44,268 nt of DNA. Source: Acidimicrobiaceae bacterium. Its GTDB lineage: Bacteria > Actinomycetota > Acidimicrobiia > Acidimicrobiales > RAAP-2. Each line of letters opens with the position of its first letter. Position 1 is the first letter of the stretch. The notes below the pieces were generated by a model. The model worked only from the letters and a program-made list of their open reading frames with translations, was not told where the DNA came from and did no database searches. The stretch spans positions 1 to 44,268 of the forward strand of contig PLBM01000119.1 in NCBI GenBank assembly GCA_003134515.1. Reading direction: 5' to 3'. Both the position numbers and the translations under genes were made by a program. Below, one piece after another: positions 12,187-32,875 of this stretch.

Positions 12187-12201
12187 TCGCTTGCTTAGCG
12201 A
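12187..12201. terminator. Small hairpin between convergent genes
   Basis: TCGCT and AGCGA are separated by a 5-base loop. The element starts right after the Trm112-like stop and covers the stop of the convergent thiolase. There is no T tract, so termination activity is uncertain. Confidence 0.3.
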
Positions 12202-13403
12202 AGGCGCTCGACGATCATGGCCATTCCCTGGCCGCCGCCCACGCACATTGACTCGAGGCCGAAGCGCTTGTCGGCGTCTTCGAGTGAGTTGAGCAACGTC
12301 GTCATGATGCGCGCACCGGTCATGCCAAAGGGGTGACCGAGGGCGATCGCGCCGCCGCGGATATTGAGCTTGTCGAGCTTGATGCCGAGGTGCTTCGCAC
12401 TCGGCAGGACCTGCGCAGCGAAGGCTTCGTTGATCTCGACCAGGTCAATGTCCTCCATGGTCATGTTCGCGCGGCGAAGCGCCTGGCGACAGGCCTCGAT
12501 CGGACCGAGTCCCATGATCTCGGGATTCAGTCCGCTGACGCCGCTCGCGACGACGCGCGCCAAGGGCTTGATGCCGAGCTCTTTAGCTTTGGTGTCACTC
12601 ATGACGATGACGCCCGCGGCGCCGTCGTTGAGCGGACAGGCGTTGCCGGCGGTGATAGTGCCGCCGGGGCGAAAGACGGGCTGGAGAGTGGCGAGTTTCT
12701 CGAGAGTGGTGCCGGCGCGCGGGCCGTCGTCTTTGGCGACGACGGTGCCGTCGGGCAACGTCACTGGCGTGATTTCGCGCTCGAAGAAACCGTTCTCTTG
12801 GTGCGCGACGGCGAGCTCTTGAGAGCGCAGCGCGAACTCGTCCATCTCGTGACGCGAGACCTTCTCGAACTCGGCGACGTTCTCCGCCGTTTGGCCCATG
12901 GCGATGTAGATGTCGGGCAGCCCCTCGGGCGGCGACCAGGGATCGGTGGCTTTTTCGGAGCGTTGCTTGCTGCGCTCGATCGCGTCGGCGAAGAGGGGGT
13001 TGCGGGCGGCGCCCGTGTCGCTCGCGCCGCTGGCAAATCGTGACACCGTCTCGACGCCCGCAGAGATGAAAATGTCACCTTCGCGGGCACGGATGGCGTG
13101 GGTGGCCATGCGGATGGTCTGCAGGGACGAGGAGCAGTAACGGTTGACCGTGACGCCGGGCACGTCGTCGAGACCGGCCAGCACCGCGGCCACCCGCGCG
13201 ATATTAAAGCCCGCCTCGCCAGCCGGCTGGCCGCAGCCCACCATGAGGTCTTCCACGCTGTGGGGATCGAGCTCGGGCACTTTTTCTAAAAGCGCGCGCA
13301 CGATGAGTACGGTGAGGTCGTCGGGACGCATGTCCACGAATGATCCCTTGAAGGCACGCCCGATCGGGGTACGCGCGGTGGCGACGATGACGGCTTCGGG
13401 CAT
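12195..13403 (-). CDS. Acetyl-CoA C-acyltransferase (thiolase)
   Basis: Degradative or biosynthetic thiolase of 402 residues that cleaves 3-ketoacyl-CoA or condenses acetyl-CoA. The nucleophile is Cys 90 in NRYCSSSLQ; the other conserved elements are NEAFAAQ, GGAIALGHPFGMTGAR with His 357, and CVGGGQG with the second catalytic Cys 387. Full family length, no targeting signal, so cytoplasmic. The ATG has a strong ribosome site GAGGAGGA just upstream. A perfect inverted repeat lies 13-32 bases upstream of the start codon and is a likely repressor site. The riboflavin synthase gene is upstream on the same strand, and an acyl-CoA dehydrogenase is nearby, consistent with beta-oxidation. The chain-length preference cannot be told. 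Confidence 0.94.
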   Translation of the reverse strand: MPEAVIVATARTPIGRAFKGSFVDMRPDDLTVLIVRALLEKVPELDPHSVEDLMVGCGQPAGEAGFNIARVAAVLAGLDDVPGVTVNRYCSSSLQTIRMATHAIRAREGDIFISAGVETVSRFASGASDTGAARNPLFADAIERSKQRSEKATDPWSPPEGLPDIYIAMGQTAENVAEFEKVSRHEMDEFALRSQELAVAHQENGFFEREITPVTLPDGTVVAKDDGPRAGTTLEKLATLQPVFRPGGTITAGNACPLNDGAAGVIVMSDTKAKELGIKPLARVVASGVSGLNPEIMGLGPIEACRQALRRANMTMEDIDLVEINEAFAAQVLPSAKHLGIKLDKLNIRGGAIALGHPFGMTGARIMTTLLNSLEDADKRFGLESMCVGGGQGMAMIVERLR

Positions 13404-13468: not shown

Positions 13469-13975
13469 TTAGGTCGCCTCGAGTGGTCCGGCGTCGGCGA
13501 AGCCCTGACGGACGCCGGTACCCGCACGACGCGCCAGCTGGTCCGGTTCGAAGAGCATCCAGTAGGCATTACGGGCGTGGCTGCGTGAGCGGTTCTCAAA
13601 GACCGTGGCCAAGACCTGGGGATCGTCGGATTCGTCTTCGTGCACGAAGACTTCGAGAATCGGCGTCGAGGTCATGAGTTGGGCCTGCATGATGCCGAGC
13701 GAGGCCTCGTGCGCGCACTGTTTGTCGATGGCGGCTGACCCGGGCATGCCGAGCACGACCACGATGGCGGCGCCGTCGCGTTCGATCATGTTCTTCGCGG
13801 CGACTGCCAGATCCTTAAAACCGGGCACGGTCTCGCTAATGACGTGAAACGTCGTGCCGTGGCCGGGGCACAGGGCGAGTTCGTTTCGAGCGGCGCGGCC
13901 CATGTCGTAGCGAGCGAACATCGTGTCGATCACGCCGATCTTCACCTTCGCGCGGGACTTCTTCTTGTTGTCCAC
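13469..13975 (-). CDS. ribC: Riboflavin synthase, archaeal type
   Basis: Converts two molecules of 6,7-dimethyl-8-ribityllumazine to riboflavin. The 168 residues resemble the methanogen enzyme, not the two-domain bacterial RibE. Recognisable blocks are KIGVIDTMFARYDM, TVPGFKDLAVAAKNM, LGMPG, DKQCAHEASLGIMQAQLM, VFVHEDE, HARNAYWMLF and the C-terminal AGTGVRQGFADAGP, all matching Methanocaldococcus RibC block by block as I remember it. The protein is a lumazine-synthase relative and probably forms a pentamer in the cytoplasm. An N-terminal Lys-rich extension of about ten residues precedes the first strand. The start is GTG. It is divergent from an FAD-dependent acyl-CoA dehydrogenase and upstream of the thiolase. 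Transfer from archaea or an ancient shared lineage is possible. Confidence 0.92.
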   Translation of the reverse strand: MDNKKKSRAKVKIGVIDTMFARYDMGRAARNELALCPGHGTTFHVISETVPGFKDLAVAAKNMIERDGAAIVVVLGMPGSAAIDKQCAHEASLGIMQAQLMTSTPILEVFVHEDESDDPQVLATVFENRSRSHARNAYWMLFEPDQLARRAGTGVRQGFADAGPLEAT

Positions 13976-14002
13976 GTGACTCCGATCCGTCTATCCAGTG
14001 TA

Positions 14003-14075: not shown

Positions 14076-15380
14076 ATGGCCTGGGACTTTTCAACCGACG
14101 AAGCGTTCGAAGAACAATTGGTGTGGATGCGCGGCTTCGTGCGTGATGAGATCATGCCCTTAGAGACGTTGCGTCTCGAATACGACCAGATCGTGAAAGT
14201 GATTGAGCCCTTGCAAGAGCAGGTGCGCGCGCGGGGCCTGTGGGCGGCGCATTTGCCGAGTGAGCTCGGCGGCATGGGCTTTGGCCAGGTGAAGCTCGGC
14301 CTGATGCACGAAGTCCTGGGACAGTGCATGTACGCACCGGTCGTCTTTGGCAATAACGCGCCCGACAGTGGCAACGCCGAACTGCTCGCGGCCGGCATGG
14401 AGATGACCGGGCGAGAGGACATTCGAGAGCGTTGGTTGTATCCGCTTCTGAGCGGTTCGATTCGTTCGGGGTTTTCGATGACTGAACCCGACACGGCCGG
14501 CAGTGACCCGCGGCTCTTAAAGACCCGCGCGCGCAAAGACGGCGATGAGTGGGTCATCACCGGGCGCAAGTGGTATACCTCCAACGGCTCGGTGGCCGAC
14601 ATCTTGATCGTGATGGCCGTCACCAATCCCGACGTGCACCCCTACCAGGGCTCGTCGATGTTTGTCGTGCCCGTAGAGACGCCCGGAGTGAAGATCCTGC
14701 GCGACGTCGGTTCGATGGACGACCCCGACGTCGTCTTTGGACGCTTCGGCAACCACGCGGAGATCCTCTACGAAGACGTGCGCGTGCCCGAAGACCACTT
14801 GATCGGCCCCGAAGGATCGGGTTTCTTGCTCGCTCAGACCCGACTCGGACCGGGCCGGATACATCACTGCATGCGCTGGCTCGGACAGTCCCAACGCGCC
14901 TTTGACATGATGTGCGAACGGTCTCTCTCTCGGTTCACCCACGGGTCGCTCCTCGCCGAAAAGCAGACCGTCCTCAACTGGATCGCCGACTCCAAGGCCG
15001 AGATGCACGCGGCGCGCCTGATGACCCTGCACGCCGCTTGGAAGATGGATCAGGTGGGCGCCTCGGCGTCGCGTGACGAGATCGCGATGATCAAGTTCTA
15101 CGGGGCCAACGTATTGCACAACGTCATTGACCGTGCGATCCAGACCTACGGCTCGCTGGGCTACTCCTCCGACATGCCCCTCGAGGCGATGTACCGCGCG
15201 GCGCGCGCGGCAAGAATCTACGACGGCCCCGACGAGGTGCACCGCCAAACGGTGGCGCGCCACGCGCTGCGCGACTACCACGCCAGCGAGATCCCCACTG
15301 ATCACATCCCCACGCGCACGATCGCGGCCAAAAAGAAGTTTGCCGAAGTCTTGGAGTTCTTAGAAGCTGACTCGGTCTAG
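14076..15380 (+). CDS. Acyl-CoA dehydrogenase (ACAD10/11-like)
   Basis: FAD-dependent enzyme of 434 residues that introduces the alpha-beta double bond in acyl-CoA. It shows the helical N-terminal domain, the FSMTEPDTAGSDP flavin segment (about 136-148), ITGRKWYTSNG, the R-x-H-H segment GRIHHCMRWLGQ, QTYGSLGYSSDMPLEAMYR, and the terminal IYDGPDEVHRQTVARHAL. The catalytic-base position holds Asp in YDGPDEVH, where MCAD has Glu; this is normal for the ACAD10/11 group. ATG 14076 was chosen over an upstream in-frame codon because it has the ribosome site GAGAGAGGT and begins the conserved fold. It ends 4 bases inside the convergent LLM gene. Probably part of fatty or branched acyl-CoA breakdown with the nearby thiolase. 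Confidence 0.93.
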   Translation: MAWDFSTDEAFEEQLVWMRGFVRDEIMPLETLRLEYDQIVKVIEPLQEQVRARGLWAAHLPSELGGMGFGQVKLGLMHEVLGQCMYAPVVFGNNAPDSGNAELLAAGMEMTGREDIRERWLYPLLSGSIRSGFSMTEPDTAGSDPRLLKTRARKDGDEWVITGRKWYTSNGSVADILIVMAVTNPDVHPYQGSSMFVVPVETPGVKILRDVGSMDDPDVVFGRFGNHAEILYEDVRVPEDHLIGPEGSGFLLAQTRLGPGRIHHCMRWLGQSQRAFDMMCERSLSRFTHGSLLAEKQTVLNWIADSKAEMHAARLMTLHAAWKMDQVGASASRDEIAMIKFYGANVLHNVIDRAIQTYGSLGYSSDMPLEAMYRAARAARIYDGPDEVHRQTVARHALRDYHASEIPTDHIPTRTIAAKKKFAEVLEFLEADSV

Positions 15381-16330
15381 CGCGGCGCGAGACCTTCGAC
15401 GGCCGCCTTGAGATCGAGGCCAAAGGGCACGATCGCGAGGGTGGGGATCGCGACGCCGGCCTCCACGTAGCGCAAGACGTGCTCGCGACACTCGTCGTAG
15501 GAGCCGTGAATCACCAGTTCGTCGACTACCGAGTCGGGGATGACCTCGTTGGCCAGTTTGCGATCGCCCGCGGCCCAGGCGTCCCACATCGGCGTCAACG
15601 CCTCGCCGCGGCCGAGCCATTTGTGAAACTCGGCGTAGACCGTCACCGTTAGGTACGACGAGATCATCCGGCGCGCGATAAAGCGCGCGGTGTCGGTGTC
15701 TTCAGTGGGGATGACGAAGAGCCGGGCCGCGATGGACTTCCCCTCGCCGACCTCGGCTCGACATTGGGCGACGTCGCTCGCGGCGAGCCAGTTGAGGATG
15801 GCGCCGTCGGCCTCTTTCCCGGCGAGGCGCAACATGCCTGGGCGCAGCGCCCCTAAGAGAATCTCGGGACGGTGAATCACCGGGCGCGAGAGTTTAAAGC
15901 CGTGCACCTCGAAGGTCTCAAAGACTTCGTCGATCTTCTCACCGTCGAGGGCGCGCTTGACAAAACGCAGCACGTCGCGCGTTCTTTGATACGGGTGCTC
16001 GTAGGCGATGCCGTTCCAACGTTCGACGACGGGCTGGCTTGACGCGCCCAGGCCCATCGTGAAGCGTCCCTCGGCAACTTCGGCCAACGCCGCGATGCTC
16101 ATCGCGAGCAGACCGGGGCCGCGGGTGAAGACCGGCGTCACCGCGACGCCGAGATTGAGACGCGGCTCGACGGCCGCCGCCAAGGTCAAGGGAGTGAAGC
16201 CGTCGGCGCCGTCGACCTCGGCCGACCAGACGTCGGTGTAGCCGAGGTCGGCCAGACGATGGAACCACTCACGGTGTTCGTTGAGGGTGACGCCGTCAAA
16301 GGGAATGGTGATGCCGTAGCGAGAAGTCAT
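15377..16330 (-). CDS. LLM-class F420-dependent oxidoreductase
   Basis: A 317-residue TIM-barrel oxidoreductase of the luciferase-like monooxygenase family, probably using coenzyme F420. Conserved features are the N-terminal strand YGITIPFDGV, LGYTDVWSAEVDGADGFTPL, LGVAVTPVFTRGPGLLAMSIAALAEVAEGRFTMGLGASS, YQRTRDVLRFVKRAL, PEILLGALRPGMLRLAGKEADGAILNW, and a C-terminal GSYDECREHVLRYVEAGV. The frame is open further upstream, but ATG 16330 begins directly at the first strand. The substrate cannot be inferred; such enzymes act on many hydrides and xenobiotics. It overlaps the acyl-CoA dehydrogenase end by 4 bases (convergent). Confidence 0.88.
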   Translation of the reverse strand: MTSRYGITIPFDGVTLNEHREWFHRLADLGYTDVWSAEVDGADGFTPLTLAAAVEPRLNLGVAVTPVFTRGPGLLAMSIAALAEVAEGRFTMGLGASSQPVVERWNGIAYEHPYQRTRDVLRFVKRALDGEKIDEVFETFEVHGFKLSRPVIHRPEILLGALRPGMLRLAGKEADGAILNWLAASDVAQCRAEVGEGKSIAARLFVIPTEDTDTARFIARRMISSYLTVTVYAEFHKWLGRGEALTPMWDAWAAGDRKLANEVIPDSVVDELVIHGSYDECREHVLRYVEAGVAIPTLAIVPFGLDLKAAVEGLAPR

Positions 16331-16367
16331 GGCTTCAGTGTTCCAGATGGCGCGCACCCTCGCCGGT

Positions 16368-17147
16368 TCAGCCGAGGTAGTCGCCCTTACTGGGCGCCGG
16401 CACGTCCATGCCCCGACGGATGAGATCCTCGACCCATCGGTCGATGAGCGTCTCGAGCACGGCGACACGCGCGTAGTGCTTGTTCTCGGCCGCGATCAGG
16501 TTCCAGCGCACGTGGGGTTCGTCGGTGGCCTTCACCATGAACTTGAGGGCCTTTAGATAGCCCGCGCGGTGATCTCGGTTTTCCCAGTCGTCGGGGGTCA
16601 GCTTCCAGTGTTTGAGGGGATCGCTGGCCCGCTCGTTGAAGCGGCGCAGTTGCTCTTCGTCCGAGATGTGCAGCCAGAATTTCACCAGGGTGACGCCGTC
16701 GTTGCTGAGCATTCGCTCGAACTCCACGATCTCTTTCGCCGACTGGCGCGCCGTCTCTTCGTCAATGAGGCCCTCGACGCGCTCGACGAGGAGACGCCCG
16801 TACCACGAACGATCAAAGACCGTCATCTCGCCCTGTCCGGGCAGAGCCTCTTGGAAACGCCAGAGGAAGTGGTGGCGCAACTCTTCGGTCGTGGGCGGAC
16901 CGATCGGCTTTACCTGCACGTGGCGTGGGTCGAGACCGGCCGTCAGTCGTCGGATGGCCCCGCCCTTGCCGGCGGCGTCAAAGCCCTCGAAGAGCACGAG
17001 CAGACCGGGCCCGACCACATGGGGCTCGAGGAGTCCGGCGCTGAAGAGTCGTAGTTGGGTGAGGCGGCGTTGGGCCATCATCACTCGCTCGTCGGACTCT
17101 TCTTTGCTGAGCGTCTTCGTCAAGTCAATATTGTCGACTCGACTCAT
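16368..17147 (-). CDS. ppk2: PPK2 family polyphosphate kinase
   Basis: Transfers phosphate between polyphosphate and a nucleotide. The 259 residues carry Walker A FEGFDAAGKGGAIRRL (around residues 54-69), the DRSWYGRLLVERVEG Walker B and lid segment, KFWLHISDEEQLRRFNER, and the C-terminal W-x-L-I-A-A-E-N-K-x-Y-A-R core end typical of the family. Whether it prefers ADP, AMP or GDP cannot be decided by eye. The frame extends upstream to a TTG at 17198, but ATG 17147 lies in an ATGA overlap with the stop of an 11-codon ORF that has a good ribosome site, so I infer that the kinase starts here by translational coupling. It is downstream of the YfhO-like gene on the same strand. Confidence 0.9.
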   Translation of the reverse strand: MSRVDNIDLTKTLSKEESDERVMMAQRRLTQLRLFSAGLLEPHVVGPGLLVLFEGFDAAGKGGAIRRLTAGLDPRHVQVKPIGPPTTEELRHHFLWRFQEALPGQGEMTVFDRSWYGRLLVERVEGLIDEETARQSAKEIVEFERMLSNDGVTLVKFWLHISDEEQLRRFNERASDPLKHWKLTPDDWENRDHRAGYLKALKFMVKATDEPHVRWNLIAAENKHYARVAVLETLIDRWVEDLIRRGMDVPAPSKGDYLG

Positions 17148-31942: not shown

Positions 31943-32875
31943 TTAGCCGAGTGCCGGGATGACTTCTGACGCGATTTGGCCAACGTGATCTAGGTCACTC
32001 ATGTCCAATATCTGCAGATAGATGCGAGATACTCCGATTTCGCCGTACGTGAGAATCTTGTCCACTATTTGCGCTGGCGAACCGGCCAGACCGTTCTTGG
32101 AGAGATCGCTGACGTCACGCCCGATATTTGACGCACGCCGCTCAAGTTCAGCTTCGTTCTTTCCACAACACACAACGAGGGCCACCGAGCGGAGAAGTGA
32201 CGCAGGGTCACGGTCAACTTTTGCGCAGGCCCCGTCGACCAGTGTGAATTGAGTTCGACAGACTTCGTAGGGGGCGAAGGGGACGTTGAATTCATCGGCA
32301 AAGGTGGCGGCCAGACGGGGCGTGATCTTGGGACCGTGTCCACCGACGACGATGGGTGGTCGCGGCGACTGGAGGGGTTTTGGCAGCGCCGGACTATCGG
32401 TCAGCGAATAGTGCTTGCCGGAAAAACTGAAGGTCTCGCCAGCTTTGGTACCCCATAGTCCAGTGATGATGCCCAGCTGCTCTTCTAACTTCTCAAAGCG
32501 TTCGCCAAGGGAAGGAAAGGGAATGCCGTAGGCGGCGTGCTCCGCCCCGAACCAGCCGGCCCCAAGCCCGAGTTCCACGCGACCGCCGCTCATCGCGTCA
32601 ACTTCCGCGACGGCGATCGCGAGCGGGCCGGGATAGCGGAACGTGGCCGCGGTCAAAAGGGTGCCAAGGCGAATGTGACTGGTGTCGCGGGCCAGGCCCG
32701 CGAGCGTGATCCACGCGTCAGTAGGGCCCGGTAGTCCCGAGACCGAGCCCATCTTCAGATAGTGATCTGAGCGGAAGAAGGCGCCGAATCCGCCCTCTTC
32801 CGCGGCCAGCGCTAGCGACAGGATCTGGTCATACGTGGCACCCTGTTGGGGCTCGCAGAAGATTCGAAGTTCCAT
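31943..32875 (-). CDS. LLM-class F420-dependent oxidoreductase
   Basis: A 310-residue TIM-barrel oxidoreductase. It begins MELRIFCEPQQGATYDQILSLALAAEEGGFGAFFRSDHYL, typical of the F420-type subfamily that starts with an E-x-Q strand and has S-D-H-Y-L near residue 40. Further conserved are LGTLLTAATFRYPGPLAIAVAEVDAMSGGRVELGLGAGWFGAEHAAYGIPFP and PPIVVGGHGPKITPRLAA. Probable cofactor F420; substrate unknown. ATG 32875 has AGGAAAG upstream. It is downstream of the SDR gene on the same strand with a 68-base gap, probably in one operon with it and the CMD gene. Confidence 0.9.
   Translation of the reverse strand: MELRIFCEPQQGATYDQILSLALAAEEGGFGAFFRSDHYLKMGSVSGLPGPTDAWITLAGLARDTSHIRLGTLLTAATFRYPGPLAIAVAEVDAMSGGRVELGLGAGWFGAEHAAYGIPFPSLGERFEKLEEQLGIITGLWGTKAGETFSFSGKHYSLTDSPALPKPLQSPRPPIVVGGHGPKITPRLAATFADEFNVPFAPYEVCRTQFTLVDGACAKVDRDPASLLRSVALVVCCGKNEAELERRASNIGRDVSDLSKNGLAGSPAQIVDKILTYGEIGVSRIYLQILDMSDLDHVGQIASEVIPALG

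Follow-up and report, generated by a model that had tools for sequence, protein, structure and literature searches.

Riboflavin synthase exists in nature as two unrelated enzymes, one of them usually found in bacteria and the other in most archaea. The locus described here raises the question of whether an actinobacterium has come to make its riboflavin with the enzyme of the other group, and, if so, what became of its own. The window, by which we mean the whole 44,268-nucleotide stretch analysed (contig PLBM01000119.1 of assembly GCA_003134515.1, from an Acidimicrobiaceae bacterium within the order Acidimicrobiales), carries on its minus strand, at 13469..13975, a gene with a GTG start that encodes a protein of 168 amino acids. 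A GGAG sequence lying four bases before the GTG (13980..13983, minus strand) reads as a putative ribosome-binding site. An initial annotation had described the product as an archaeal-type riboflavin synthase, similar from end to end to the RibC of methanogens and distinct from bacterial RibE, and had regarded such an enzyme as unusual in a bacterium.

The family assignment is confirmed by several lines of evidence, and the activity is predicted from it. The NCBIfam equivalog model for archaeal riboflavin synthase (TIGR01506, ribC_arch) recognizes the protein with 176.2 bits against a cut-off of 100.55 (E = 3.8e-52), and the match covers the complete profile (protein residues 12-165 aligned to positions 1-151 of 151). 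Identity to RibC of Methanocaldococcus jannaschii is 53% (82 of 154 columns), and the C-terminal block reads RQGFADAGP in the window protein and RQGFEDAGP in the methanogen. Only four sequence relatives were found in the PDB, namely M. jannaschii RibC (2B98/2B99) and constructs of that protein or of a design based on it. An AlphaFold monomer model built with 31 sequences (pLDDT 88.3, pTM 0.83) has a lumazine-synthase-like fold, and its closest PDB structure is again the methanogen enzyme (2b98_C, E = 2.8e-18, TM 0.84/0.92, rmsd 1.7, 52% identity). Pfam detects only the DMRL_synthase domain and no PF00677, the lumazine-binding domain that occurs twice in the two-domain bacterial RibE; the reaction and pathway step of the latter enzyme are those predicted for the window protein, but it belongs to a different sequence family. 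The window protein thus resembles archaeal RibC in homology over the whole profile, in identity and in predicted fold, and differs in its setting, an actinobacterial genome with bacterial-type RibD, RibBA and RibH, as well as in a short Lys-rich N-terminal extension that is present in part of the genus. According to the relevant section of PMC10366380, archaeal synthases are homopentamers whose sequences are completely different from those of the trimeric bacterial, yeast and plant enzymes; membership in the family suggests that the window RibC may be a homopentamer as well.

Since RibC and RibH (lumazine synthase) have a common fold and the window protein exceeds the cut-off of Pfam DMRL_synthase (48.4 versus 26.7 bits), it might instead be a second or diverged lumazine synthase, a RibH paralogue without riboflavin synthase activity. 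We consider this very improbable. The lumazine synthase model TIGR00114 gives only 26.5 bits against a cut-off of 84.6, whereas the RibC model is far exceeded, and the best lumazine synthase structure matches the predicted fold with E = 6.2e-9 and 21% identity. In a tree of 62 of the 102 gathered rows (L008 was left out of the sequence set), RibC and RibH are split with 100/100 support on a very long branch, and the window protein, for which a grouping with lumazine synthases had been named as a point to check, falls with RibC. The block Arg93-Gly94-x-Thr96-x-His98 (RGxTxH), invariant in ten RibHs and containing His98, which we take to be catalytic, is replaced by Pro-Gly-x-Ala-x-Ile (PGxAxI) in RibC, as judged from a profile alignment of 61 columns with a probability of 79.6. 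Moreover, a separate and true RibH (TIGR00114, 151 bits, over the cut-off) is encoded in the rib operon of the same genome, on contig C111. RibH is a distant homologue of RibC within the same fold class that differs in family score, tree position and active-site block, and identity of the window protein with lumazine synthase was rejected on these grounds.

The genes nearest ribC carry the Pfam labels thiolase, acyl-CoA dehydrogenase, luciferase-like, PPK2 and phosphomannomutase. Directly downstream and co-directional is an acetyl-CoA C-acetyltransferase (thiolase; 12195..13403, minus strand; PRK07851, 704 bits; Pfam Thiolase_N/C), and divergent from ribC is an acyl-CoA dehydrogenase (14076..15380, plus strand, with the start at 14076 chosen by hand; Pfam Acyl-CoA_dh_1/M/N). 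Two genes with a Bac_luciferase domain in Pfam were also detected, one being the second gene from ribC (15377-16468) and the other lying at 31943-32875. The earlier description of a flank of flavin-dependent fatty-acid genes is appropriate for the divergent dehydrogenase but not for the co-directional neighbour, as thiolase is presumably not a flavoenzyme, and we know of no role for it in the riboflavin pathway. The thiolase is the neighbour of ribC in much of the genus and adjoins it in at least 19 of 80 named loci (the best 80 of at least 573 relatives, several of these loci being broken by contig ends). A functional tie between ribC and the thiolase/acyl-CoA dehydrogenase flank was not supported, and no functional meaning of the flank for ribC is evident. 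Rfam at gathering thresholds detected no FMN riboswitch, either within the window or within five stretches of rib operon.

The same neighbourhood bears on whether the window contig might be archaeal contamination in a bacterial metagenome-assembled genome (MAG), which is conceivable for a draft of 142 contigs. Against it, the arrangement of ribC and thiolase recurs in separately assembled genomes, a relative resides on a 1.2-Mb contig (L154), and the GC3 of ribC (0.82) falls within the 0.64-0.84 spanned by eight further genes of the window, which is what a long-established gene would show. Given this recurrent synteny and ordinary codon composition, contamination was rejected, and the chance that it explains the locus is practically negligible.

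If the gene belongs to the genome, the next question is whether the bacterial enzyme is present as well. The genome has 2.02 Mb and is 83% complete, so that the lack of any PF00677 match in it would be weak evidence alone; however, the domain was also not found in any of the 25 genomes of the genus searched, and the same Pfam library recovered it in the RibE of a relative. Among these 25 genomes, RibC was over the cut-off in 19 and RibH in 24. In a set of 41 relatives including the own genome, 20 had RibC, 12 had RibE and none had both over the cut-off. An even sample of the class (247 genomes) gave a similar picture at cut-off level: RibC in 17, RibE in 194, neither in 36 and both in none (Fisher p = 4e-13, a value that is uncorrected for relatedness and thus counts relatives, not independent events). 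Of the 195 genomes with any PF00677 match, the weakest belongs to a RibC genome, G143 (a single match, E = 1.8e-4), which must be the one under the cut-off. RibE was therefore not found over the cut-off in RibC genomes.

Across the phylum, RibC exceeded the cut-off in only nine of 396 sampled genomes, all of them within the order of the window, which for this phylum agrees with the view that it is unusual in a bacterium. Its presence extends to five families of that order (f1, f9, f20, f24 and f33). Genus-wide, RibC was over the cut-off in 84 of 99 genomes, and a match was found in 54 of 59 good-quality genomes. Counted apart from the 84 is a genome in which RibC occurs in two overlapping pieces (G639:C55:34520-34979), probably because of a frameshift or an assembly error. 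Control genomes fitted the bacterial/archaeal divide of synthase types, with Haloferax showing the bacterial type.

An archaeal-type synthase in actinobacteria is not without precedent. RibE2 of roseoflavin-producing Streptomyces (S. davaonensis and S. berlinensis) is likewise of this type, and the sections of PMC11039241 that concern it describe the S. davaonensis protein as a riboflavin synthase that leads to higher riboflavin levels and mention an earlier proposal of horizontal transfer; a search of passages of PMC6709556 gave nothing on RibE2. In addition, a homologue that is 57.7% identical to the window RibC is located on a linear 273-kb plasmid of S. camelliae (L193:14995-15471, NZ_CP115301.1), near rosB and ribX and, by annotation, three genes away from a ribA copy. 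Because these published bacterial relatives are accessory and the plasmid copy has such neighbours, the window RibC might also be an extra enzyme dedicated to flavin-derived secondary metabolites, with the main synthase encoded elsewhere. This is very improbable, considering that RibE was found in none of the 25 genomes of the genus, that none of the Pfam labels nearest ribC recalls a ros cluster, and that the distribution of the gene across the genus resembles that of a core gene. Whereas Streptomyces RibE2 is an additional synthase inside the roseoflavin cluster, the window RibC is apparently the sole one and occurs lineage-wide. Archaeal-type synthases in actinobacteria are thus already known as extra copies, and what appears to be new is the lineage-wide replacement. 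A search of the open-licence PMC literature by group name gave PMC7320173, on a gut metabolic network, as its only match.

The rib operon bears on this replacement as well. In the genome studied, the genes def-fmt-rpe-ribD-ribBA-ribH are located together on contig C111, with ribD and ribBA overlapping, and RibD (TIGR00326, 309 bits) and RibBA (PRK09311, 638 bits), like RibH, are over their cut-offs and of the bacterial kind. Operon genes were named by Pfam and NCBIfam in this genome and by tblastn with its proteins elsewhere. Among the 12 RibE genomes found in the order, the operons of five were examined, and in all five ribE lies between ribD and ribBA, the hits of which are 609-754 bp apart. 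In all 16 RibC genomes in which both genes could be seen, the two hits are -1 to 201 bp apart, and none of these genomes gave a ribE hit at this place. In a further RibC genome, G098, 932 bp of contig precede ribBA, and these contain no hit to ribD or ribE. The slot also lacks ribE in five genomes of the genus without a detected RibC. With the slot empty and RibC located elsewhere, it appears that RibE was removed from the operon and that RibC took its place. As far as sequence can tell, no normal RibE, which would have spoken against this reading, was found elsewhere in the genome. Of the earlier proposal of transfer or replacement, replacement is well supported by the mutual exclusion of the two enzymes and the empty slot, while transfer from archaea may have taken place, as judged with M. 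jannaschii as the one archaeal sequence compared.

Several relatives have no recognized synthase. The sister genomes G013 and G016 (99/95), which belong to the same genus, are 96-97% complete at 1.5 Mb and keep ribD-ribBA-ribH, and neither RibC nor RibE was found in them; RibC can therefore be missing while the upstream rib genes stay. In G013 (L055, L194), a gene for an AMP-binding, acyl-CoA-synthetase-like protein replaces ribC beside the orthologous thiolase. No close thiolase was detected in G014, G016 (locus L054) or G019, the best ones being 38-41% identical. In G001 and G008, the contigs end on the ribC side of the thiolase, so that the missing RibC is not informative there. A search of six RibC-null genomes of the genus with the RibC profile, at E values up to 10 and with no positive-control genome included, returned nothing. 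G019, from the same genus (1.4 Mb, 96% complete), lacks detectable RibH, RibC and RibE and is possibly a riboflavin auxotroph; RibC was also not found in G696 of this genus, and the same three proteins were not found in G030 (99% complete) and G039 (95% complete) of the same order. The RibC-null genomes G013, G016, G019 and G696 are small; loss accompanied by riboflavin uptake, assembly gaps or an unrecognized synthase are possible explanations. One variant of these would be that, after the change from RibE to RibC, the reduced-genome sub-branch of G013 and G016 lost RibC too and either has a third, unrecognized synthase or makes lumazine without converting it in the same cell; we regard this as unlikely.

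As to whether RibE was replaced once or more often, a tree of rpe-ribD-ribBA-ribH with 32 rows (seven flagged as less than half filled) unites 19 of the 20 rows of the RibC lineage, among which three RibC-null rows from the genus are counted, as a single starred group (96/98). The position of G207, from family f24, is unresolved in this tree. A single clade of all 20 rows was not rejected (p-AU 0.289); in the best tree of the operon genes the enzyme type has to change twice, and a single change suffices in only 9% of 200 bootstrap trees. The simplest account would be one ancient replacement of RibE by RibC before the split of about five Acidimicrobiales families.

The donor may have been an archaeon or an archaeal-derived source. 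In the RibC tree, the only archaeal sequence, that of M. jannaschii, lies inside the bacterial RibCs. It groups with L148 (95/80, starred), and its branch is long and of odd composition, so that the tree does not give the direction of transfer. No relative was detected in viral contigs with either the M. jannaschii protein or A1 as the query. Of the best 80 of at least 573 relatives in genome contigs, none is titled as an archaeon; 76 are titled Acidimicrobiales, Acidimicrobiaceae or other actinobacteria, three Acidobacteria and one simply "bacterium", and several isolate names in this set refer to palsa, bog or fen. MAGs titled Acidobacteria or Acidobacteriota with an actinobacterial RibC were seen at L094, L153 and L169; in L153 and L169 the ribC-thiolase-pgm neighbourhood is also of the type found in the genus, and their titles look wrong for this reason.

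Taken together, the window RibC is very probably a working synthase and most likely the only one of the organism, RibE having apparently been lost and RibC having taken over in what looks like one old non-orthologous replacement. We infer activity and essentiality from family membership, the lack of another known synthase and the wide occurrence of the gene in the genus. In the proposed pathway, bacterial-type RibD, RibBA and RibH, whose genes are clustered on a different contig, would lead to 6,7-dimethyl-8-ribityllumazine, two molecules of which would be dismutated by RibC to riboflavin and one pyrimidinedione, and the latter may return to RibH for reuse. The loss of RibE from between ribD and ribBA, and its takeover by RibC from elsewhere in the genome, would date to the common ancestor of about five Acidimicrobiales families. 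The pattern resembles an exchange of enzymes throughout the lineage more than a fault of annotation, and the enzyme that was replaced is presumably essential.

A bacterial lineage that apparently depends on an archaeal-type synthase, in an otherwise bacterial-type pathway with an empty RibE slot, would represent a clean case of non-orthologous replacement. It also implies that a search for RibE only would wrongly label these uncultured bacteria as riboflavin auxotrophs. Furthermore, as described in the corresponding part of PMC10366380, RibE of Bacillus subtilis sits inside the RibH capsid; since RibC replaces the type of RibE that is enclosed in this way, these organisms may offer a chance to test the interplay of RibC and a bacterial RibH.
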